A DNA stretch of 51,214 nucleotides, taken from Polymorphobacter sp. Its GTDB lineage: Bacteria; Pseudomonadota; Alphaproteobacteria; Sphingomonadales; Sphingomonadaceae. Positions 17,327 through 25,319 of the stretch are shown one piece after another. Position 1 is the first letter of the stretch; every line of letters starts with the position of its first letter. The translations under genes were made by a program, and so were the position numbers. The DNA is taken from assembly GCF_025362435.1 (NCBI RefSeq), contig NZ_JANYGL010000161.1, forward strand, positions 1-51,214, written 5' to 3'. The notes under the pieces are model-generated. The model was not told where the DNA came from. It saw only the letters and a list, made by a program, of their open reading frames with translations, and did not search any database.

Positions 17327-17572
17327 ATGACGATTGACGAAATAGTCGCGAAGATCGCCGATGTGATGGTCGATGTCTTCGACGTCGATGAACTAGATGT
17401 TACCCAAGCGACGTCGGCCGACGATGTCGAAGAATGGGACAGCCTTAGTCACATTCGTTTCATCATTACGCTCGAGCGCTTGTTCAAGATTAAGTTCCTC
17501 AACGAGGAAATCGCCGATTTAAAGAATGTCGGCGATCTTGCGCGCGTCATCCAGGCAAAATTGCCAGCCTGA
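17327..17572 (+). CDS. Acyl carrier protein
   Basis: An 81-residue acidic helical protein with the phosphopantetheine attachment motif in EEWDSLSHIRFI (S39 of DSL). It is a stand-alone carrier like those paired with FkbH-type enzymes, and is clearly separate from the housekeeping fatty-acid ACP, whose usual motif is DSLDxVE. The ATG giving MTIDEIV is preferred over an in-frame ATG 24 bases upstream because the family starts here. It heads an operon with spacings of 20, 6, 6, 12 and -4 bases, ending at the VOC gene. I infer that it carries the acyl unit loaded by the next gene and delivered to the MBOAT protein. Confidence 0.92.
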   Translation: MTIDEIVAKIADVMVDVFDVDELDVTQATSADDVEEWDSLSHIRFIITLERLFKIKFLNEEIADLKNVGDLARVIQAKLPA

Positions 17573-17592
17573 CACAACCAGGGACCGCGCCG

Positions 17593-19479
17593 ATGCTCGC
17601 CGATCTCGACTGGCTCGAACCCGTCGCGGACTTCCGTGTCCGCCTGAAGGCCGTCCGTGCGGCGATCGCCGATGGCACCGCCGACGAGGAGCAGCTTTAC
17701 GCGCTCGCGCTCGCTCGCCTCGACCTCAACCAGCTTGGCCAGCTCGCCGGCGCCGTCGCCTCATATATCGCCAACAACCCTGCCCCCGGTCCCTTGGCGC
17801 GCGTCCGGCTCGGGGTCATCGGCTCGGGCACTCTTGGCCTCGTCGAGCCCGCGATCGTCGCCAGCGCGCCACGGCACCGGGTCATCGCGACGGTGATCGG
17901 CGGTAACTACGGCAGTGCGATGCAGGACGCGATCGACCCCCAAAGCGCGCTGCGCTCTGCTGGGCTCGACCTTGCGCTGATCGCACTCGACCATCGGACG
18001 CTCGGGCTGGACCGGGCGCAGGCGACCGGCGACGCGGCGGCGGCGGCAGTCGACGCGGCGGCAGCGATGCTCGGCGCGATGGTCGACGGCCTTGCCGCCT
18101 CTGCCGCCGGCGGGGTCATGGTTGCGACGATCGTGCCGCCGGTCGAGCCGCTGTTCGGCAGCTTCGACGCGGTTGAGGCGGGGTCGGTCGCGGCGCAGGT
18201 CGCCGCGCTCAATTCGCGGCTTGCCGGGTGGGCCCGCGACAAGCGGATCGTCCTCGTCGACATCGCCCGGGTGGCGTCGTGGGTCGGTCTCGACCGCTGG
18301 CACGACGCCGGGCAATGGCATTCGGCGAAGCTGCCGTTCGACCCCGACCTGATCCCGCTTTACGCCGATGTCGTCGCGCGGACGGTTGCGGCGATCCGCG
18401 GGACGACGCGCAAGTGCCTCGTCCTCGACCTCGACAACACGCTGTGGGGTGGCGTTATCGGCGACGACGGGGTCGACGGCATCGCGCTCGGCCAGGGGTC
18501 GGCCAAGGGCGAGGCGTTCCTCGCGATCCAGCAGATGGCGCTCGGCCTGCGCCAGCGCGGCATCATCCTCGCAGTGTGCTCGAAGAACGACGACGACGTT
18601 GCCCGCATCCCCTTCCGCGACCACCCCGACATGCCGCTCAAGGAAGAACACATCGCGTCGTTCGTTGCCAACTGGGGCGACAAGGCGACCAACCTCCGCG
18701 CGATCGCATCGGCGCTCAACATCGGCCTCGACAGCCTCGTCTTCCTCGACGACAACCCGGTCGAGCGCGCGCAGGTCCGCCGCGAGCTGCCGATGGTCGC
18801 GGTTCCCGAGCTCCCCGCCGACCCGGCGCTTTATCCGCGAATCCTCCTTGGCGCGGGTTATTTCGAGGCGGTCGCCTTTGCGCAGGAGGATCGCGACCGC
18901 GCCGACCAGTATCGCGCCAACGCCGAACGCGCGGCATTCGCCGGCACCAGCGACATGGCAGGGTATCTGGCGTCGCTCGACATGGTCGCCGATTTCCGCC
19001 CGTTCGACGCGGTCAACCGCGCCCGGATCGCGCAGCTGATCAACAAGTCGAACCAGTTCAACCTGACGACGCGGCGCTATACCGAGGCGCAGGTCGCCGC
19101 ACTCGAAGCGGAGCCGACCAAGCTGACGATGCAGGTTCGCCTGACCGACCGCTTCGGCGACAACGGTATGATCTCGGTCATCGTCGTCGACCGCGCGACT
19201 TGGGAGATCGACACGTGGCTGATGAGCTGCCGCGTCCTCGGTCGGCGGATGGAGGAAGCGGTGCTCGCGCAGATCGCCGGTGCGGCGCGCTCCGCGGGAG
19301 CGACGGCGCTGACCGGGCGCTACATCCCGTCGGTCAAGAACAAGATGGTTGCCCAGCATTACGCCAAGCTTGGGTTCGAGCTCATTGAGCAAGGCGATAG
19401 CGGCGAGACGGTGTGGCGGCTCGACCTTGGCAGTTATGTCGCGCCCGACCTGCCGATGCACATCGTCGATGGGTCGTAG
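17593..19479 (+). CDS. FkbH-like HAD-IIIC enzyme, predicted ACP-loading glyceryltransferase/phosphatase
   Basis: A 628-residue, three-part protein. The N-terminal part (about 70-265) has the SGNH-like fold start seen in many FkbH-like proteins (RVRLGVIGSGT). A HAD-IIIC phosphatase domain follows, with DLDNTLWGG (D279 and D281 the catalytic aspartates), CSKND and FLDDNPVER. The C-terminal part (about 480-620) is GNAT-like and includes INKSNQFNLTTRRYT and SVKNKMVAQHYAKLGF. Characterised FkbH enzymes take 1,3-bisphosphoglycerate, remove phosphate and leave a glyceryl thioester on a carrier protein. The ACP gene directly upstream fits that reaction. Glyceryl is therefore the favoured substrate, but related hydroxyacyl units cannot be excluded. 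Family assignment is strong; substrate is inference. Confidence 0.9.
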   Translation: MLADLDWLEPVADFRVRLKAVRAAIADGTADEEQLYALALARLDLNQLGQLAGAVASYIANNPAPGPLARVRLGVIGSGTLGLVEPAIVASAPRHRVIATVIGGNYGSAMQDAIDPQSALRSAGLDLALIALDHRTLGLDRAQATGDAAAAAVDAAAAMLGAMVDGLAASAAGGVMVATIVPPVEPLFGSFDAVEAGSVAAQVAALNSRLAGWARDKRIVLVDIARVASWVGLDRWHDAGQWHSAKLPFDPDLIPLYADVVARTVAAIRGTTRKCLVLDLDNTLWGGVIGDDGVDGIALGQGSAKGEAFLAIQQMALGLRQRGIILAVCSKNDDDVARIPFRDHPDMPLKEEHIASFVANWGDKATNLRAIASALNIGLDSLVFLDDNPVERAQVRRELPMVAVPELPADPALYPRILLGAGYFEAVAFAQEDRDRADQYRANAERAAFAGTSDMAGYLASLDMVADFRPFDAVNRARIAQLINKSNQFNLTTRRYTEAQVAALEAEPTKLTMQVRLTDRFGDNGMISVIVVDRATWEIDTWLMSCRVLGRRMEEAVLAQIAGAARSAGATALTGRYIPSVKNKMVAQHYAKLGFELIEQGDSGETVWRLDLGSYVAPDLPMHIVDGS

Positions 19480-19485
19480 GTTGCG

Positions 19486-20574
19486 GTGACCCGGATCAAC
19501 TGGTCGGCCAAGCTGCTCGGAATCCTTGCGGCGGCGTTGTTCACCGCCGTGGCGGCGGCCGCGCTGCCCGACAACCCGTACCAGCGCTGGCAGCAGGTCG
19601 AGAACACGCTCTTCGCCAATGCGGCGTGGTCGTACGAGCGCATCCACTTCGATCCGCGCCCGGTCGACGTCGCGATCATCGGTCCGTCGCGGTCGCAGAT
19701 CGGGCTCAGCGCGCCGCGGATCGCGGAACGGCTGGCGGCGCTCGGGCAGCCGGCGACCGTCGCCAACATGTCGGTGATCGAGAGCGGGCGGAACCTCGAA
19801 TGGGCGATCGCCGACGAGCTGTTCAAGGTTAAGCACCCGAAATTGCTCATTATCCTTGTAGGCGAGACGCCGAACCGCTGGGGACATCCGGGGTTTAAGT
19901 ACGTCGCGCCCGCCGCCGCGATCGCATGGCCGCCGCAACCGTTCCTGCACAACTCGCTCTATGACATCACCTATCTCCCGTTCCGCCAGATGCGGCTGTT
20001 CGCGGCGTCGCTGTTCCCCGAGACCTTCGGGCTGCGCACCCGCTTCGACCCGGCGCGCTACGCGGCGCTGCCGACCGACTTCACCACCAGCCAGGTGCTG
20101 ACCGACGGCAAGCTGATCGACATGGACGTCGCGCATTCGCCCGACGAGCTGCGGGCCGAAGCGCGCGCGTTCGCGGCGACCCAGCAGGCGTCGCTGATCC
20201 CGCCGGCGCTGGCGCCGGTGATCGAGGCCGATGATCCGGTCTATGTCGGGGCGATGGCCCGGCTTGCGGCGGCGCACAACACGCGGGTGCTGTTCGTCTT
20301 CCTCCCTGAATTCGGCGGAGCGACGACGATCGAGGGCCAAGATTTTTATGCAAAATTCGGCCCGGTCGAGAATTACGGCGACCTCGCACGCGATCCGGGC
20401 ATGTTCCAAAGCTTCGCCCATCTCAATCGCCGCGGCGCGCTGGTCGCCAGCGACCGGGTCGCCGCCGCAGCTGCGCCGCTGCTTGCCGCCGCCACGCGCG
20501 ACCGCTACGCGCCGACGACAGGTGGTGGTCTGGTCGACCAGCGCAGCCGGCGGTACCCGGCCGGAGCAGACTGA
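19486..20574 (+). CDS. SGNH-like periplasmic protein, copy 1 (DltD/AlgJ-like role inferred)
   Basis: A 362-residue protein from a GTG start. It has an N-terminal signal anchor (about 8-27) and then an extracytoplasmic domain. GPSRS (66-70) has the look of an SGNH-hydrolase block I with S68 as nucleophile, and HLNRRG (H312) that of block V. It is a paralogue of the gene two positions downstream; both share LPDNPYQR at residues 27-34 and the same spacing of motifs. Here the Asp expected three residues before the block V His is Ser (S309), while the second copy keeps Asp, so this copy may be catalytically impaired or act as a partner. Its place beside an MBOAT gene parallels DltD and AlgJ/AlgX. 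Confidence 0.7.
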   Translation: MTRINWSAKLLGILAAALFTAVAAAALPDNPYQRWQQVENTLFANAAWSYERIHFDPRPVDVAIIGPSRSQIGLSAPRIAERLAALGQPATVANMSVIESGRNLEWAIADELFKVKHPKLLIILVGETPNRWGHPGFKYVAPAAAIAWPPQPFLHNSLYDITYLPFRQMRLFAASLFPETFGLRTRFDPARYAALPTDFTTSQVLTDGKLIDMDVAHSPDELRAEARAFAATQQASLIPPALAPVIEADDPVYVGAMARLAAAHNTRVLFVFLPEFGGATTIEGQDFYAKFGPVENYGDLARDPGMFQSFAHLNRRGALVASDRVAAAAAPLLAAATRDRYAPTTGGGLVDQRSRRYPAGAD

Positions 20575-20580
20575 CGCGCG

Positions 20581-22164
20581 ATGCTGTTCAATAGTTTCGT
20601 CTTCATCTTCGGCTTCCTGCCGCTCGCGCTGATCGCCTTCTACGCGAGCGGGCGGTGGGTCGGGCGCGGCGCCGCTGCGGTCGTGCTGTCGCTCGCCAGC
20701 TTGATCTTCTACGCGTGGTGGCGACCGCAGGACCTGCCGATCCTGCTGTTCGCGATCGTCTTCAACTACATCGTCGGCGGAATAATCCAGCGGGTGCGGG
20801 CGCGTGACCAGATGGTCGCAGTCAAGCTGTGGCTGACGCTCGGGCTGCTCGTCGACCTCGGTCTGCTCGGCTATTATAAATACGCGAATTTCGTCGTCGA
20901 AAACGTCGCCGCCGCGACCGGATCAGATTTCACCCTCCACCATATCGTCCTGCCGCTGGCGATTTCGTTCTTCACCTTCCAGAAAATCGCCTACCTCGTC
21001 GACTCGTCGCATGGCATCGTCAAGGACACCGGTCCGGTCGAGTTCGGCCTATTCGCCTCGTTCTTCCCGCAGCTCCTCGCCGGGCCGATCGTCCATTATT
21101 CAGAGATCATCCCCCAACTAAGGGCGCCGCAATTCACCCGGCTGCTGACGCGCAACCTCGTCATCGGCCTCGTCATCTTTGCGATCGGCCTGTTCAAGAA
21201 GACCGTCATTGCCGACACGCTGGCGAGCTTCGCCAACCCGATGTTCGCCCACGCGCAGGTTCCCGGCGGCTATGTCGGCGGCGGGCCGTATGACCTCGCG
21301 CGCGGCTGGACCGTGGCGGTGACGTACACGCTCCAATTGTACATGGACTTCTCGGGCTATTCCGACATGGCGATCGGGCTCGCGCGTATGTTTGGGGTCA
21401 AGCTGCCGCTCAACTTCCACTCGCCGCTGCGCGCAGCCAGCATCATCGATTACTGGCGCCGCTGGCACATGACGCTCCAGCGCTTCCTGCTCGCCTATCT
21501 CTACCAGCCGATCGCGTTGCCGATGAACCGCTGGGCGGCCGAGCGCGGGCTGACCGGGTGGAGCGCGTTCGCCGCCGGGATCGCGGTGCCGACGCTGATC
21601 ACCTTCGTCCTGATCGGAGTGTGGCACGGGGCGGGCTGGACCTTCGTCGTCTTTGGCGTGATGCACGCGCTGTACGTGCTGGTGAACGAGATCTGGCGCG
21701 AGCGCCGCAAGCAGGCGAACCGCCGCCGCCGCAAGGCGAAGCTGGCGCCGCGCGTCATCGGCCGCGGCGAAATCATCTCCTATCACGTCATCACGCTGAT
21801 CTGCGTCGCCTTCGCCAACGTCGTCTTCCGCGCGATCAGCCTTGGCGACGCCGCCACGGTGACGCGGGCAATGGCCGGGTTCGACGGGATCGGCACGCTG
21901 TCGGCGGCGGTGCTGCCCGCCGATCTCGCGGTGACGATCGTCCTCAGCATCGCCCTCGTCGCGCTGTTCCCCAACGCGCAGCAGATCATGGCGGCGTACC
22001 GCCCGGCGGTGAACTTCGCCGAATGGCGCGGCGTCAACCACCCGCCGCTGATGTGGCGCTGGCGGCCGAATACCCTGGGGATCGTCTTCGCCGGCGTCGT
22101 GCTGTTCGCCGGCATCATGTTCGTCCAGCGTGGTGCCGCCGTGTTCCTCTACTTCAACTTCTAG
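20581..22164 (+). CDS. MBOAT family membrane acyltransferase (AlgI/DltB-like)
   Basis: A 527-residue polytopic inner-membrane protein of the membrane-bound O-acyltransferase family. Family landmarks are the start LFNSFVFIFGFLPLAL, the LPLAISFFTFQKIAYLVD stretch, FFPQLLAGPIVHY, DFSGYSDMAIGLARMFG, YWRRWHMTL and the conserved histidine in GVWHGAGWTF (H349). In AlgI and DltB systems this protein passes an acyl group across the membrane to extracytoplasmic glycans. It sits between two SGNH-like paralogues and downstream of a carrier protein and its loading enzyme, so I infer the acyl donor is the thioester of that carrier, as with DltC. It has normal length and is in operon with its neighbours (6- and 12-base gaps). 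Confidence 0.93.
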   Translation: MLFNSFVFIFGFLPLALIAFYASGRWVGRGAAAVVLSLASLIFYAWWRPQDLPILLFAIVFNYIVGGIIQRVRARDQMVAVKLWLTLGLLVDLGLLGYYKYANFVVENVAAATGSDFTLHHIVLPLAISFFTFQKIAYLVDSSHGIVKDTGPVEFGLFASFFPQLLAGPIVHYSEIIPQLRAPQFTRLLTRNLVIGLVIFAIGLFKKTVIADTLASFANPMFAHAQVPGGYVGGGPYDLARGWTVAVTYTLQLYMDFSGYSDMAIGLARMFGVKLPLNFHSPLRAASIIDYWRRWHMTLQRFLLAYLYQPIALPMNRWAAERGLTGWSAFAAGIAVPTLITFVLIGVWHGAGWTFVVFGVMHALYVLVNEIWRERRKQANRRRRKAKLAPRVIGRGEIISYHVITLICVAFANVVFRAISLGDAATVTRAMAGFDGIGTLSAAVLPADLAVTIVLSIALVALFPNAQQIMAAYRPAVNFAEWRGVNHPPLMWRWRPNTLGIVFAGVVLFAGIMFVQRGAAVFLYFNF

Positions 22165-22176
22165 GGGACGCTGGGC

Positions 22177-23214
22177 GTGCGCCGTCTCGACTGGAGCAAG
22201 ACCGGACTGGCGATCCTCGCCACAGTCGTGCTCGCGGGTGCCGCTGCCGCCGCATTGCCCGACAACCCTTACCAGCGCTTCAGCACGCTCGAGAACACGA
22301 TCCAGAAACGCGCGCGCTGGATCTACGAGCGGATCCACTACGACCCCGCCCCGATCGACGTCGCGGTGGTTGGCCCATCGCGATCTGGCGCCGCGGTCGA
22401 CTCGCCGCTGCTCCAGGCCGATCTCGCCGCGCTCGGCCGCAAGCTCGACACCGTCAATTTCTCGCTCGCCGAAAATGGTCGCGATCTCCACTGGGTCATC
22501 GTCCAGGAGATGCTCGCGGCCAAGTCGCCGAAGCTGGTCGTGATCGGGGTGATCGAGAAGCCCGGGCGCTACGGCCACCCCGCGTACAAGTACGTCGCTC
22601 CCGCCGCCGACGTCGTCGACCCAGCGTTCGTCGGCAACGTCGATTATCCGGCGAACCTGCTATACCTGCCGTTCCGCCAGCTCCGGTTGCTCGCCGCCCA
22701 AGCCTTTCCGGCGGTCTTCGACTTGCCGGCAAAGTTCGATCCGAAGCGCTACGCCGGGACCAACCCCGGGCGGCCATTGAGTTTCGTCGTCGCCGCCGGC
22801 GTCGAGCCCGACCACGAGGAGCCGCTGACCAAGCCCGCGCTCGTTGCTCAGGTCCGGCGCTACGAGGCCGGGGTCCACCCGCCGGTCCTCGGCGACCGTT
22901 TCGCCGATATCGAGTTCGGCGATGAACGGACTTACATCGCGCGAATGGCGACACTGGCACGCCAACGCGGAATTCGCGTCGCATTCCTCTTCCTGCCTTA
23001 TTATACGGGTCCGCATGTCATTCAGGAGCGTGCCTTTTATGAGCGTTACGGTCCGATCATCGACGCGTCGTTCCTGTCGGATCACGATGACTATTACGCC
23101 GACGCTGCGCACCTCAACCGCCGCGGGGCGGCGGTCTTGACCAACTGGCTGGCGCCGCGGATCGCCGCGCTCGTTCCCGAGCCGCGATCGCCAGCTGCGA
23201 AGACCGCGTCATGA
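22177..23214 (+). CDS. SGNH-like periplasmic protein, copy 2 (DltD/AlgJ-like role inferred)
   Basis: A 345-residue paralogue of the protein encoded upstream of the MBOAT gene, also from a GTG start. It has an N-terminal signal anchor (about 8-26), GPSRS (66-70) as likely block I, and DAAHLNRRG with D309 and H312 as block V, so the Ser-Asp-His set appears complete. Other shared segments are LPDNPYQRF and YERIHYDPAP near the N-terminus and YKYVAPAAD in the middle. The two copies flank the acyltransferase, suggesting duplication followed by specialisation. Its last four bases overlap the VOC start (ATGA), so the two are translationally coupled. It probably completes acyl transfer to the glycan in the periplasm. 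Confidence 0.75.
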   Translation: MRRLDWSKTGLAILATVVLAGAAAAALPDNPYQRFSTLENTIQKRARWIYERIHYDPAPIDVAVVGPSRSGAAVDSPLLQADLAALGRKLDTVNFSLAENGRDLHWVIVQEMLAAKSPKLVVIGVIEKPGRYGHPAYKYVAPAADVVDPAFVGNVDYPANLLYLPFRQLRLLAAQAFPAVFDLPAKFDPKRYAGTNPGRPLSFVVAAGVEPDHEEPLTKPALVAQVRRYEAGVHPPVLGDRFADIEFGDERTYIARMATLARQRGIRVAFLFLPYYTGPHVIQERAFYERYGPIIDASFLSDHDDYYADAAHLNRRGAAVLTNWLAPRIAALVPEPRSPAAKTAS

Positions 23215-23618
23215 CGCTCGACCGACCAGTGCTGCACCATGTCGGGATCGTCGTTCCCGATGAGGCCGAGGCGGCGGCGCAGATGGCAATCCTTGGCCTG
23301 CACGAGGATTATCGCGGCTACGTCCCTGAATTCGGCGCATTATGCATCTTCGTCGCCGGCAACGGCGCCTCGCCGGTCGAATTCGTCATCCCCGACGAGG
23401 GAACGGTCCTCGCCAAGTTCAACAAGGGGATGGGCGGCCTGCATCACCTCGCCTACGTAGTAGCCAGCCTCGATGAAAAAGCAGCCGAACTCGAGGCGGC
23501 GGGAATGCGGCTGCTCGAAGCAAAGCACGTCAAGGGAGCGGGCGCTTTCTACTGCAATTTCCTCAGCCCGATCTACACCCGCGGGCTGACCATTGAATAT
23601 ATCGAGTTGGTCGGTTGA
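23211..23618 (+). CDS. VOC superfamily protein (glyoxalase/methylmalonyl-CoA epimerase-like)
   Basis: A 135-residue protein with the two beta-alpha-beta-beta-beta units of the vicinal oxygen chelate fold. Candidate metal ligands are in LHHVGIVV (H9/H10), VEFV (E57), GLHHLAYV (H78/H79) and IEYIEL (E129/E132), the His/Glu pattern of glyoxalase I and methylmalonyl-CoA epimerase. It lacks a signal peptide, so it is cytoplasmic. Being coupled by ATGA overlap to the second SGNH-like gene, it probably belongs to the same acyl-modification pathway, perhaps acting on the hydroxyacyl precursor or carrier-bound unit as an epimerase or isomerase. No specific reaction can be read from the sequence. Confidence 0.85.
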   Translation: MTLDRPVLHHVGIVVPDEAEAAAQMAILGLHEDYRGYVPEFGALCIFVAGNGASPVEFVIPDEGTVLAKFNKGMGGLHHLAYVVASLDEKAAELEAAGMRLLEAKHVKGAGAFYCNFLSPIYTRGLTIEYIELVG

Positions 23619-23687: not shown

Positions 23688-25319
23688 ATGGCTAATTCGT
23701 CCCCGACCTACCTACCGACCTACTCGAGCCGTCCGGTCGACACGAGCCGGGGGCGTCGTGCGCTGATCGTGCTGTCGCGAATCCTGCTTGCGGCTGGCTA
23801 CGGTGTCATGGTCGTCCTGTTGCCGCCGAAGATGCTGTTCGTCCTGGCCCTGCCGATCGCGGCGATGTTGCTGGTGACGTTGTGGATGCTGCCCGATCGC
23901 GCGACATTCCCGCTTGCGTCGCTCGAGCGCGTGTTCCCGGTCTACATCGTGCTGAACATCGTCTGGCCGGTCTATATCGCCGTCGCCCTGCCGGGGCTGC
24001 CGTGGCTCACCCCGACCCGAATGGTGTTGTTCGTCCAGTCGTTCCTGCTGGTGTACAGTTTCGCGACGTCGAGCGACCTGCGCCAGTATATCGGCAAGGT
24101 CGCGCAATCATCGAAGTGGTTCTGGCTGAGCTTCCTGTTCTGGGAGGCGATGCAGGTCATCACCCTGCCGCTGTCGCGAACCCCGGCGACGTCGGCAAAG
24201 ATGCTCGTCGACAATCAGCTTTCATTCGTCGGCGTCTTCTTTCTCGGTTGCCTGATCTTCAGCCGGAAAGGCTGGGCGACGTGGCTGTCGAGCACGCTGA
24301 TCATCCTCGCCCTGATCAGTTCCGCCAATGGCTTCCTCGAGTTGCACCTCGGCTATCCGCCATGGGCGAACCACATCCCGAGCTTCATGCGCGCCGACGA
24401 GTCGGTCATGGCGGTTGTTCTGGGGGCTCAGGCGCGCACCGCCGACGGCCTCTACCGCGTCCACGGGCAGTTCCCGCTGAGCTTGGTGATGGCCGAATAC
24501 CTGGCCCTGTCGCTCCCGTTCGTCGTCCATCTGATCGTGACCAGCCCAGGCTTCGCGCGGCGAACACTGTTGGTTCTCGCGCTGGTCTTCATCATGTCGG
24601 CGATCCTGATCACCCAGTCGCGGCTCGGCCTCGTCGGCGCGATGGTCGCCTTCGCCGCCTATCCGCTGATGTGGGCGTACCGCGTCTGGCGCGGTGGCAA
24701 CAGCGGGATGCTCGGGCCGGCGCTGCTGTTCGGCGCGCCGGTTGGGGTAGTTCTCCTGCTCGGCGTCGTGATGAGCAGCCACACACTGTCGAATCGCATT
24801 CTCGGCGGCGGGGCGCAGAGTGCGAGCAACGAAGCACGCAAGGTGCAGCGCGAGATGACGGTCCCGAGGGTGCTGCACAACCCGATCGGCTATGGGTTGG
24901 GAAATAGCGGGACGGTCCTCGGTTATGCCAATCCCGGAGGCTTCCTGACGATCGACAGCGGGCTGTTGACGACGGTTCTCGATCTCGGCGTCGTCGGCGT
25001 CGTGGCCTTTTTCGGGCTTTTGCTCGCAGCGGCGAAGGAAGGCATCGGCGTCTATCTGCGCACGACCGATCGCGAACTGGGCCTTGCTGCGCCGGCTGCG
25101 ATCTCGATCCTCATATTCGTCGTGATCCGGTTCGTGCTTTCACAGGAAAACGACTTCCCGCTCGCTTTCCTCATCCTCGGCATGATCATGGGCCTCGTCG
25201 CTCGCGAACGCGCTAGCCGTGGAGAATTTGCTCCGGTCGGGCGACTGGCGGCCGACCCGGCTCAGGATACTCCCATTCCGCTCGCCGCGGCGGCGAGCGT
25301 GGCGCGCATCGCCGGCTGA
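23688..25319 (+). CDS. O-antigen polymerase/ligase-like (Wzy/WaaL superfamily) membrane protein
   Basis: A 543-residue protein with about eleven to twelve hydrophobic segments and one long periplasmic region (about 215-275), the topology of Wzy polymerases and WaaL ligases. The Wzy_C-type region includes TQSRLGLVGAMVAF and, further on, HNPIGYGLGNSG followed by the DSGLLTTVLDLG stretch, both typical of O-antigen ligase-like proteins. It follows the VOC gene after 69 bases on the same strand. It probably polymerises or ligates the polysaccharide that the upstream enzymes decorate. Polymerase and ligase cannot be told apart from sequence alone. Its last 58 bases overlap the 3' end of the convergent ccmI gene. 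Confidence 0.8.
   Translation: MANSSPTYLPTYSSRPVDTSRGRRALIVLSRILLAAGYGVMVVLLPPKMLFVLALPIAAMLLVTLWMLPDRATFPLASLERVFPVYIVLNIVWPVYIAVALPGLPWLTPTRMVLFVQSFLLVYSFATSSDLRQYIGKVAQSSKWFWLSFLFWEAMQVITLPLSRTPATSAKMLVDNQLSFVGVFFLGCLIFSRKGWATWLSSTLIILALISSANGFLELHLGYPPWANHIPSFMRADESVMAVVLGAQARTADGLYRVHGQFPLSLVMAEYLALSLPFVVHLIVTSPGFARRTLLVLALVFIMSAILITQSRLGLVGAMVAFAAYPLMWAYRVWRGGNSGMLGPALLFGAPVGVVLLLGVVMSSHTLSNRILGGGAQSASNEARKVQREMTVPRVLHNPIGYGLGNSGTVLGYANPGGFLTIDSGLLTTVLDLGVVGVVAFFGLLLAAAKEGIGVYLRTTDRELGLAAPAAISILIFVVIRFVLSQENDFPLAFLILGMIMGLVARERASRGEFAPVGRLAADPAQDTPIPLAAAASVARIAG

Follow-up and report, generated by a model that had tools for sequence, protein, structure and literature searches.

A six-gene cassette of a Polymorphobacter sp. 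with the predicted parts of an FkbH-charged, Dlt-like surface acylation machine

The window analyzed here is a 51,214-nucleotide stretch of DNA from Polymorphobacter sp. (contig NZ_JANYGL010000161.1, forward strand). Positions 17327-23618 hold six open reading frames (ORFs), encoding an acyl carrier protein (ACP), an FkbH protein, an SGNH-like extracytoplasmic protein (SGNH 1), an MBOAT acyltransferase, a second SGNH-like protein (SGNH 2) and a VOC protein. All six are open and lie on the + strand in this order. The intergenic gaps are of 20, 6, 6 and 12 bases, and the SGNH 2 and VOC genes overlap by 4 bases; the six genes are one tight operon. We read this cassette as a carrier-protein-dependent surface acylation machine, Dlt-like and charged by the FkbH protein, and give this sequence-based reading a probability of about 0.72. 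Its genes, and the parts of the MBOAT protein that matter below, are the following:

17327..17572, + strand: ACP, 81 residues; open ORF with an EEWDSL site and a match in the PDB
17593..19479, + strand: FkbH protein, 628 residues; matches TIGR01686 and PDB 3slr
19486..20574, + strand: SGNH-like extracytoplasmic protein 1, 362 residues, GTG start; aligns with SGNH 2
20581..22164, + strand: MBOAT acyltransferase, 527 residues; PF03062, DltB-like
21496..21546, + strand: MBOAT residues 306-322, opposite helix HC of DltB in the alignment with that protein
22144..22161, + strand: C-terminal hexapeptide FLYFNF of the MBOAT protein, a motif known from DltX and PatA (PMC12148441)
22177..23214, + strand: SGNH-like extracytoplasmic protein 2, 345 residues, GTG start; AlphaFold2 model and Foldseek matches
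23211..23618, + strand: VOC protein, 135 residues; PF13669

Related loci were fetched by similarity to the FkbH protein alone, and the best 80 of 362 form what we call the close set. Genes were picked by codon scoring, and partners in the close set were counted with our own profiles within 8 kb of FkbH. An MBOAT gene was present in 75/80 loci, an ACP gene in 72/80 and a recognized SGNH protein in 65/80, while VOC, methyltransferase and MaoC genes were found in 39/80, 24/80 and 20/80, respectively; some of the partners missing from these counts belong to loci cut by contig ends. The MBOAT gene lies on the same strand in 70 of the 75 cases. As the loci were fetched with FkbH alone, the partners were not selected for, and the figures for MBOAT and ACP show that the grouping is not due to chance. 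The record titles of the close set span Sphingomonadales, Caulobacterales, Rhizobiales, Burkholderiales, Gammaproteobacteria, Acidobacteria and Myxococcales. The best named relative of the window FkbH (81%) comes from a metagenome-assembled genome of Sphingomonadaceae, and the source genome (2.9 Mb) contains one MBOAT.

Regarding the loading step, the ACP scores 20.6 bits against PF00550, just under the cut-off of 20.8, and matches PDB 2lml (E 3.7e-16). Its predicted phosphopantetheine site is Ser39 in EEWDSL (codon 17441-17443), a serine that is kept in all 61 aligned ACPs. The FkbH protein gives 295.7 bits against TIGR01686 (cut-off 146.65) and matches PDB 3slr with an E value of 6.5e-57. 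It thus presents the features of an FkbH domain: a score above the curated cut-off, the HAD aspartates (Asp279 and Asp281) and a cysteine (Cys546), these three residues being invariant in 81/81 aligned rows. Described FkbH enzymes load glyceryl from 1,3-bisphosphoglycerate onto ACPs (PMC7489565, PMC8949500). We predict by analogy that the window FkbH does the same on the ACP encoded beside it, and its Cys546 may carry the glyceryl group. The preliminary description of this DNA had reported six tightly packed genes and proposed that the FkbH enzyme takes the place of DltA. We found the same positions, order and strand, and the family scores and the SGNH 2 model described below agree with that gene set. 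The proposed replacement is supported as well: the FkbH protein scores above the TIGR01686 cut-off, and the six cassette proteins give no AMP-binding match.

The MBOAT protein matches PF03062 with 102.3 bits and stays, with 159.4 bits, below the cut-off of 375 of the DltB family TIGR04091, and its best PDB match, by sequence and by structure, is DltB. Its structural model (mean pLDDT confidence 92.7) superimposes on DltB with a TM score of 0.74-0.78 by target length. The conserved histidines are His296 and His349, with no GG[NS] motif between them. In DltB, residues Met302, Val305, Ile306, Met309, Lys312 and Arg317 of helix HC bind the carrier protein DltC (PMC11035591). Arg317 and Arg322 of the window MBOAT stand opposite DltB Lys312 and Arg317, as counted on the alignment. 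On the carrier side, the hydrophobic DltC contact positions are kept in the cassette ACPs, with Leu, Met or Val at Ser+1 and Ile, Val or Leu at Ser+4 in 61/61 proteins each.

The docking stretch separates two kinds of MBOAT. Among the relatives, most MBOATs without FkbH have xGG[NS]R after an RWH motif and the FkbH-linked ones do not; this GG[NS] stretch aligns with DltB helix HC, where DltC docks. GG[NS] is absent from the segment between the two histidines in all 76 FkbH-linked MBOATs (75 from the close set and that of the window); locus L063 has WGGGK further on. The segment comprises 47-61 residues in FkbH-linked MBOATs, 48 in DltB (counted on the alignment) and 39-43 in the GG types. We take the GG-type MBOATs to be users of acyl-CoA, from the example of PatA in PMC12148441 and from general knowledge of the family.

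Before the wider DNA of a further group of loci was examined, we wrote down the prediction that an ACP would lie near the MBOATs lacking GG and not near those of the GG type. An ACP was found in 4/4 non-GG and 0/15 GG-type loci; two of the four (L188 and L189) are near-copies with proteins 89-95% identical. These two are AMP-ligase operons, and the other two (L186 and L187) are FkbH cassettes. In total, 114 MBOAT places were typed, leaving off the window's own and the second piece of one gene; 18 were on contigs already fetched via FkbH. A random draw took 80 of the remaining 96, and 60 of these 80 were obtained. The prediction loci and these 60 random ones make up a set of 79 MBOAT-seeded loci. 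Typed by [LMVI]GG[NS] in the segment, 72 were GG without an ACP and seven were non-GG with an ACP within 6 kb. A pattern applied to the whole protein gave 71 GG loci without ACP, six non-GG loci with ACP, one non-GG locus without (L241, whose segment reads LGGSS) and one GG locus with ACP (L259, whose segment reads LFFLGQNR and whose GG lies elsewhere). With the pattern narrowed to LGG or MGG and applied to the segment, the counts were 70, seven and two, the two exceptions (L201 with VGGSR and L249 with IGGNH) both lacking an ACP. The ACP match of L264 is weak and 5 kb away, and an AMP ligase is close by.

AMP-ligase versions occur elsewhere, at L189, L263 and L264. L189 (7371-11438, - strand), with its near-copy in L188, encodes an ACP, an SGNH protein, a 401-residue MBOAT, a 39-residue DltX-like microprotein ending in FVYQGF and an AMP-binding ligase; these two Dlt-like operons belong to two genomes of the order of the window. 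L263 (5201-9172, + strand) has an AMP ligase with an ACP-like C-terminal part, followed by an SGNH protein, a 369-residue MBOAT and a 49-residue hydrophobic ORF. At L264 (7932-11959, - strand), an MBOAT without the hexapeptide, ending in GIYLPSVM, is found beside an SGNH-like protein and an AMP ligase whose best NCBIfam match, below cut-off, is exosortase-A-associated.

According to PMC12148441, D-alanine on the carrier protein is transferred by DltB to the tyrosine of a C-terminal FxYxxF in the microprotein DltX, and DltD then takes it over; in PatA the FxYxxF is fused to the MBOAT. The last six residues of the window MBOAT, FLYFNF, match this motif, and its predicted acyl-accepting residue, by analogy, is Tyr524 (codon 22150-22152). 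Exact FxYxxF C-termini are present in 52 of the 75 MBOATs of the close set, near variants such as IVYKAF and FVYQTY in 18, and neither in five. The 1.49 Mb of close-set DNA has, counting both strands, 55 ORFs with an FxYxxF ending, of which 52 correspond by locus and length to these MBOATs. The five MBOATs without the motif are short (403-437 residues, about the length of DltB), and all five cassettes contain an additional, separate small ORF (36-41 codons) that encodes a single hydrophobic stretch and ends in Y-Q-x-F (L066, L058, L085, L095 and L075, the last with a GTG start that overlaps the FkbH stop). In the later sets, a microprotein accompanies a motif-less MBOAT at L113, L128, L188 and L189. 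Over all sets, 10 of the 12 complete motif-less MBOATs have beside them a DltX-like microprotein of 36-49 residues ending in Y-x-x-F/M; L230 was not counted, as its MBOAT is cut by the contig end. With a hydropathy filter that was set after the first finds, only six hydrophobic ORFs of 28-60 residues ending in Y-x-x-F are found in 2.71 Mb (L026-L185), and all of them adjoin these MBOATs. At L128 (2430-5607), a 49-residue microprotein lies between two divergent MBOAT genes, only one of which encodes the hexapeptide.

As for the extracytoplasmic side, Pfam and NCBIfam gave no match at E 0.01 for either of the SGNH proteins. The AlphaFold2 model of SGNH 2 (pLDDT 91.6) adopts an SGNH fold, and its top Foldseek match is DltD (E 2.5e-5); by Z score, it gives about 12 with PatB and about 11 with DltD. 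Ser68 and His312 are invariant, Asp309 is present in a DAAH motif, and an N-terminal helix (residues 6-25) is a likely anchor. SGNH 1 is 39% identical to SGNH 2 in the alignment and keeps the serine and the histidine, with a serine in place of the catalytic-type aspartate (SFAH, compared with DAAH in SGNH 2). We predict SGNH 2 to be the final acyltransferase.

The VOC protein scores 68.7 bits against PF13669 and 54.7 bits against the methylmalonyl-CoA epimerase equivalog, whose cut-off of 114.95 it does not reach; it is only remotely related to that enzyme. Residues His10, Glu57, His79 and Glu129, which we take to be the four metal-ligand positions by applying what is known of the epimerases to the alignment, are invariant in 17/17 rows. 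Glyceryl taken from 1,3-bisphosphoglycerate would be D-glyceryl. Since gellan, in contrast, carries L-glycerate (PMC9104527, PMC9737242), the VOC protein may reasonably be supposed to be an epimerase, and we predict that it works on C2 of the acyl group while this is bound to the ACP. VOC and MaoC genes never co-occur in the close set (0/80, with 39 VOC and 20 MaoC loci; Fisher p 1e-7 without correction for kinship), and they swap at least seven times on a quick FkbH tree of the window and 79 of the 80 loci (L028 was too short). A second VOC family is present in 15 other loci and is likewise never found with MaoC, as expected if both enzymes act at C2 of one unit. The representative MaoC protein is fused to a short-chain dehydrogenase, and in 8/10 unfused cases such a dehydrogenase is encoded nearby, in loci without VOC. 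Lactoyl starters occur in polyketide loading, and in these branches the MaoC dehydratase and the ketoreductase probably turn glyceryl-ACP into lactoyl-ACP; no epimerase would be needed there, since the reductase itself sets C2. If these loci do make lactoyl-ACP, the cassettes would deliver a small family of C3 acids. Glyceryl would be the group in the window, in line with the invariant FkbH residues and the two tailoring sets that never co-occur.

Put together, the parts suggest a relay of five steps. The FkbH protein would take D-1,3-bisphosphoglycerate, remove the phosphate and put glyceryl on the ACP, and the VOC protein might then epimerize the alpha carbon of the acyl-ACP to give L-glyceryl. 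Several sequence tests indicate that the ACP would dock on the cytoplasmic MBOAT helix and the acyl group cross the membrane to Tyr524; they also indicate that the hexapeptide would swing out and hand the group to the serine of SGNH 2. SGNH 2 could finally esterify a surface polysaccharide, with SGNH 1, which lacks the aspartate, possibly aiding docking or the choice of acceptor. The Dlt-like path from ACP through MBOAT to SGNH that the preliminary description had sketched is strengthened by the shuttle hexapeptide, the microproteins, the lack of GG[NS] and the structural matches, which are good for DltB and weaker for DltD and PatB.

One could argue that the MBOAT and its SGNH partners simply O-acetylate a polysaccharide from acetyl-CoA, as sets of the AlgI/AlgJ/AlgX or PatA/PatB type do, and that ACP and FkbH belong to a separate pathway that is merely co-transcribed. 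The fused hexapeptide is of the PatA kind (PMC12148441), one MBOAT with two SGNH proteins recalls AlgJ and AlgX, and FkbH/ACP pairs without an MBOAT do exist. We consider this improbable, as the MBOAT lacks the GG[NS] that marks those without a nearby carrier protein, some cassettes have a microprotein instead of the hexapeptide, as Dlt does, and the linkage holds in 75/80 loci from several phyla. Far less credible still is the possibility that the genes make a secreted small molecule of the tetronate or methoxymalonyl-polyketide type that MBOAT and SGNH then acylate. FkbH with a stand-alone ACP is indeed the described entry to those pathways, but a Pfam scan of nine window proteins, the part of the genome searched for them, gave no ketosynthase or polyketide synthase domain, and 37/80 related loci carry surface-polysaccharide families instead; a polyketide or tetronate use of the FkbH/ACP pair was thus rejected for the window.

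The other two alternatives keep the carrier-protein relay and concern the group that it delivers. The unit could be a modified one (2-O-methylglyceryl, lactoyl, pyruvoyl or another C3 acid), or a different acyl phosphate could be loaded, and the methyltransferase, VOC and MaoC neighbors in 24, 39 and 20 of the 80 loci do suggest tailoring. We regard this as rather unlikely for the window, where our own profiles of the methyltransferase, MaoC and dehydrogenase families match nothing and only VOC is present, and where it is glyceryl, taken from 1,3-bisphosphoglycerate, that is loaded in the FkbH reactions of PMC7489565 and PMC8949500. The role of the VOC protein is evenly poised between an epimerase and a glyoxalase-like or housekeeping enzyme, in which case D-glyceryl would be delivered. 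Its score lies far below the epimerase cut-off, its Cys45 stands opposite a glutamate of methylmalonyl-CoA epimerase, and the gene is absent beside L026; against this, the four presumed ligand residues are invariant, and neither VOC family shares a locus with MaoC.

Several observations weigh against the acylation machine as we propose it. The glyceryl identity of the acyl group is drawn from a single source, the FkbH family, and the VOC gene is missing beside the closest relative of the cassette, L026. The exclusion of VOC and MaoC is not significant in a kinship-corrected test (median p 0.25), as independent pairs give it too little power. The DltC glutamate at Ser+5, the salt-bridge partner of DltB, is an arginine in 57/61 ACPs, so the DltC-DltB salt bridge is not conserved here. 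The segment between the histidines comprises only 38 residues in the AMP-ligase operons L188, L189, L263 and L264, fewer than in almost every GG-type MBOAT, and its length is therefore not a mark of the carrier-protein class. DltD matches the SGNH 2 model at a TM score of only 0.39, and other SGNH proteins do equally well or better by Z. Among the microproteins, that of L144 ends in Met (LVYKNM); that of L263, a looser candidate and the 11th of the 12, ends in Asn (FIYWDN); and none was recognized beside the motif-less MBOAT of L264. The partner of the L128 microprotein is uncertain, as it lies on the opposite strand and adjoins the second MBOAT, which has its own motif. Beyond the pyruvyl transferase and Wzy-like genes described below, no polysaccharide cluster was recognized next to the cassette.

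Gene linkage also has its limits. The preliminary description had held that finding the genes regularly apart would speak against it; in the close set they keep together, with MBOAT in 75/80 loci, yet FkbH and ACP are found without an MBOAT in the other 5/80. To widen the sample, 249 Pseudomonadota genomes were examined, 46 of which have FkbH domains above the cut-off. They gave 82 places besides the window, and 80 of these were fetched, all but G222:C79 and G179:C10. An MBOAT lies within 8 kb at just 18 of these 80 places, so the link belongs to a part of the FkbH family. It is found at 10 of the 18 places scoring at least 650 bits with our own FkbH profile, a line chosen after seeing the data, and at 8 of the 62 others; the remaining 8/18 high-scoring places lack an MBOAT, some being cut by contig ends. 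Fifteen of the 18 MBOATs are not of the GG type, with an ACP in the locus in 15/15 cases, and three are, one of them without ACP and on the opposite strand and the other two 5.6 kb away.

High-scoring FkbH genes with no MBOAT nearby occur at L112, L122, L135, L140 and L152, some with ACP, VOC, methyltransferase or MaoC genes. They perhaps reflect a cytoplasmic use of the same acyl-ACP. An acyltransferase of the AT3 family as a substitute was looked for at these loci and at L040, L064 and L081, which lack an MBOAT as well, among multi-helix ORFs of at least 200 residues near FkbH that were picked by hydropathy count, with no family search on them, and none looked AT3-like.

A surface polysaccharide is the likely acceptor, on sequence grounds, because 37/80 close-set loci carry polysaccharide families (Wzz, Wza, Wzx, phosphoglycosyltransferase, tyrosine kinase or glycosyltransferase) and neighbors of two further kinds recur. 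We named these families ourselves and checked representatives of all but GT4, that of the tyrosine kinase matching only ParA/AAA-type models. The two genes next to the cassette in the window are:

23688..25319, + strand: Wzy_C O-antigen ligase/polymerase-like membrane protein, 543 residues; PF04932, 40.8 bits
16038..17315, - strand: CsaB-like polysaccharide pyruvyl transferase, 425 residues; PF04230, 64.1 bits

The Wzy_C gene starts 69 bases past the cassette, and the CsaB-like gene lies upstream and is divergent. Both kinds of neighbor recur together in L031 and L032. Relatives of the Wzy_C protein are also found in L029, L037 and L040; those of the CsaB-like protein are strong in L027, L031 and L032, beside the same cassette, and partial and weak in L088 and L098. 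Both neighbors are possibly part of the acceptor pathway. Elsewhere, the source genome encodes polysaccharide export proteins and phosphoglycosyltransferases, with one gene of either kind on contig C120, about 6 kb apart. Regarding gellan, one review mentions a glyceryltransferase activity (PMC9737242), and the available sections of this and a second review (PMC9104527) name no gene for glyceryl transfer. We recognized no gellan producer among the genomes searched.

Compared with known systems, the cassette shares with Dlt a dedicated carrier protein next to the MBOAT gene (an ACP is present in 72/80 related loci), a DltB-like MBOAT without GG[NS], a tyrosine shuttle hexapeptide and an SGNH partner, and some relatives even have a separate DltX-like microprotein. 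It differs in having FkbH instead of the AMP-forming D-alanine ligase DltA, in the hexapeptide being fused to the MBOAT and not placed on a separate DltX (no search for a DltX-like ORF was made in the window), and in its two SGNH proteins and VOC protein; its relatives are Gram-negative, and one does not expect teichoic acid in such bacteria. It does not count as a Dlt system, since DltA is absent and the DltX motif is part of the MBOAT; the best place for it is among the carrier-protein-dependent MBOAT/SGNH acylation systems, as a variant that is Dlt-like in its membrane steps. PatA/PatB and AlgI/AlgJ/AlgX resemble it in the fused C-terminal FxYxxF and the partner SGNH proteins, while the window operon has an ACP and no GG[NS], and its relatives have microproteins. 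Tetronate glycerate-utilization and methoxymalonyl-ACP operons also place an FkbH domain enzyme next to a stand-alone ACP, but the cassette lacks their polyketide synthase, FabH-like and dehydrogenase partners, and its acyl-ACP apparently goes to a membrane acyltransferase. The gellan of Sphingomonas elodea offers the likeness of a glyceryl ester on a sphingomonad exopolysaccharide, no gellan producer having been recognized among the loci compared. Our searches of the open-licence literature of PMC showed no earlier description of an FkbH and MBOAT cassette; the papers found for the pair of names concern cyanobacterial peptides.

In broader terms, we give even odds to the generalization that bacterial MBOAT/SGNH systems form two donor classes separable by sequence: one using acyl-CoA, with GG[NS] after RWH, and one using a carrier protein, without it. 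The latter would be widespread in Gram-negative bacteria and charged either by AMP-forming ligases or by FkbH from 1,3-bisphosphoglycerate, with the shuttle tyrosine fused or on a DltX-like microprotein. The FkbH cassettes would then represent a tunable decoration of surface glycans with C3 acids (D- or L-glyceryl, O-methylglyceryl or lactoyl), with VOC as the C2 epimerase. MBOAT/SGNH pathways other than Dlt are described in PMC12148441 as having neither a carrier protein nor a DltX-like microprotein. If our reading is right, the cassettes would be exceptions to the first rule in many Proteobacteria and Acidobacteria, and to the second in some Proteobacteria. Envelope decoration would be coupled to a glycolytic acyl phosphate and not to ATP-driven adenylation, a sequence rule would predict which MBOATs use a carrier protein, and the cassettes would supply gene candidates for the glycerate and lactate esters that bacterial polysaccharides carry, perhaps also for glyceryl transfer in gellan.

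Finally, two minor observations concern individual loci of the comparison. The SGNH gene of L034, L035, L037, L072 and L100 is followed by a gene of the AT3 family (named from its sequence, with no Pfam check), as if a second acyl group were added. In L005 and L023, which belong to the genus of the window, the MBOAT gene reads as two frames that overlap, and VOC is matched only in part; this copy of the cassette therefore looks disrupted or mis-sequenced.

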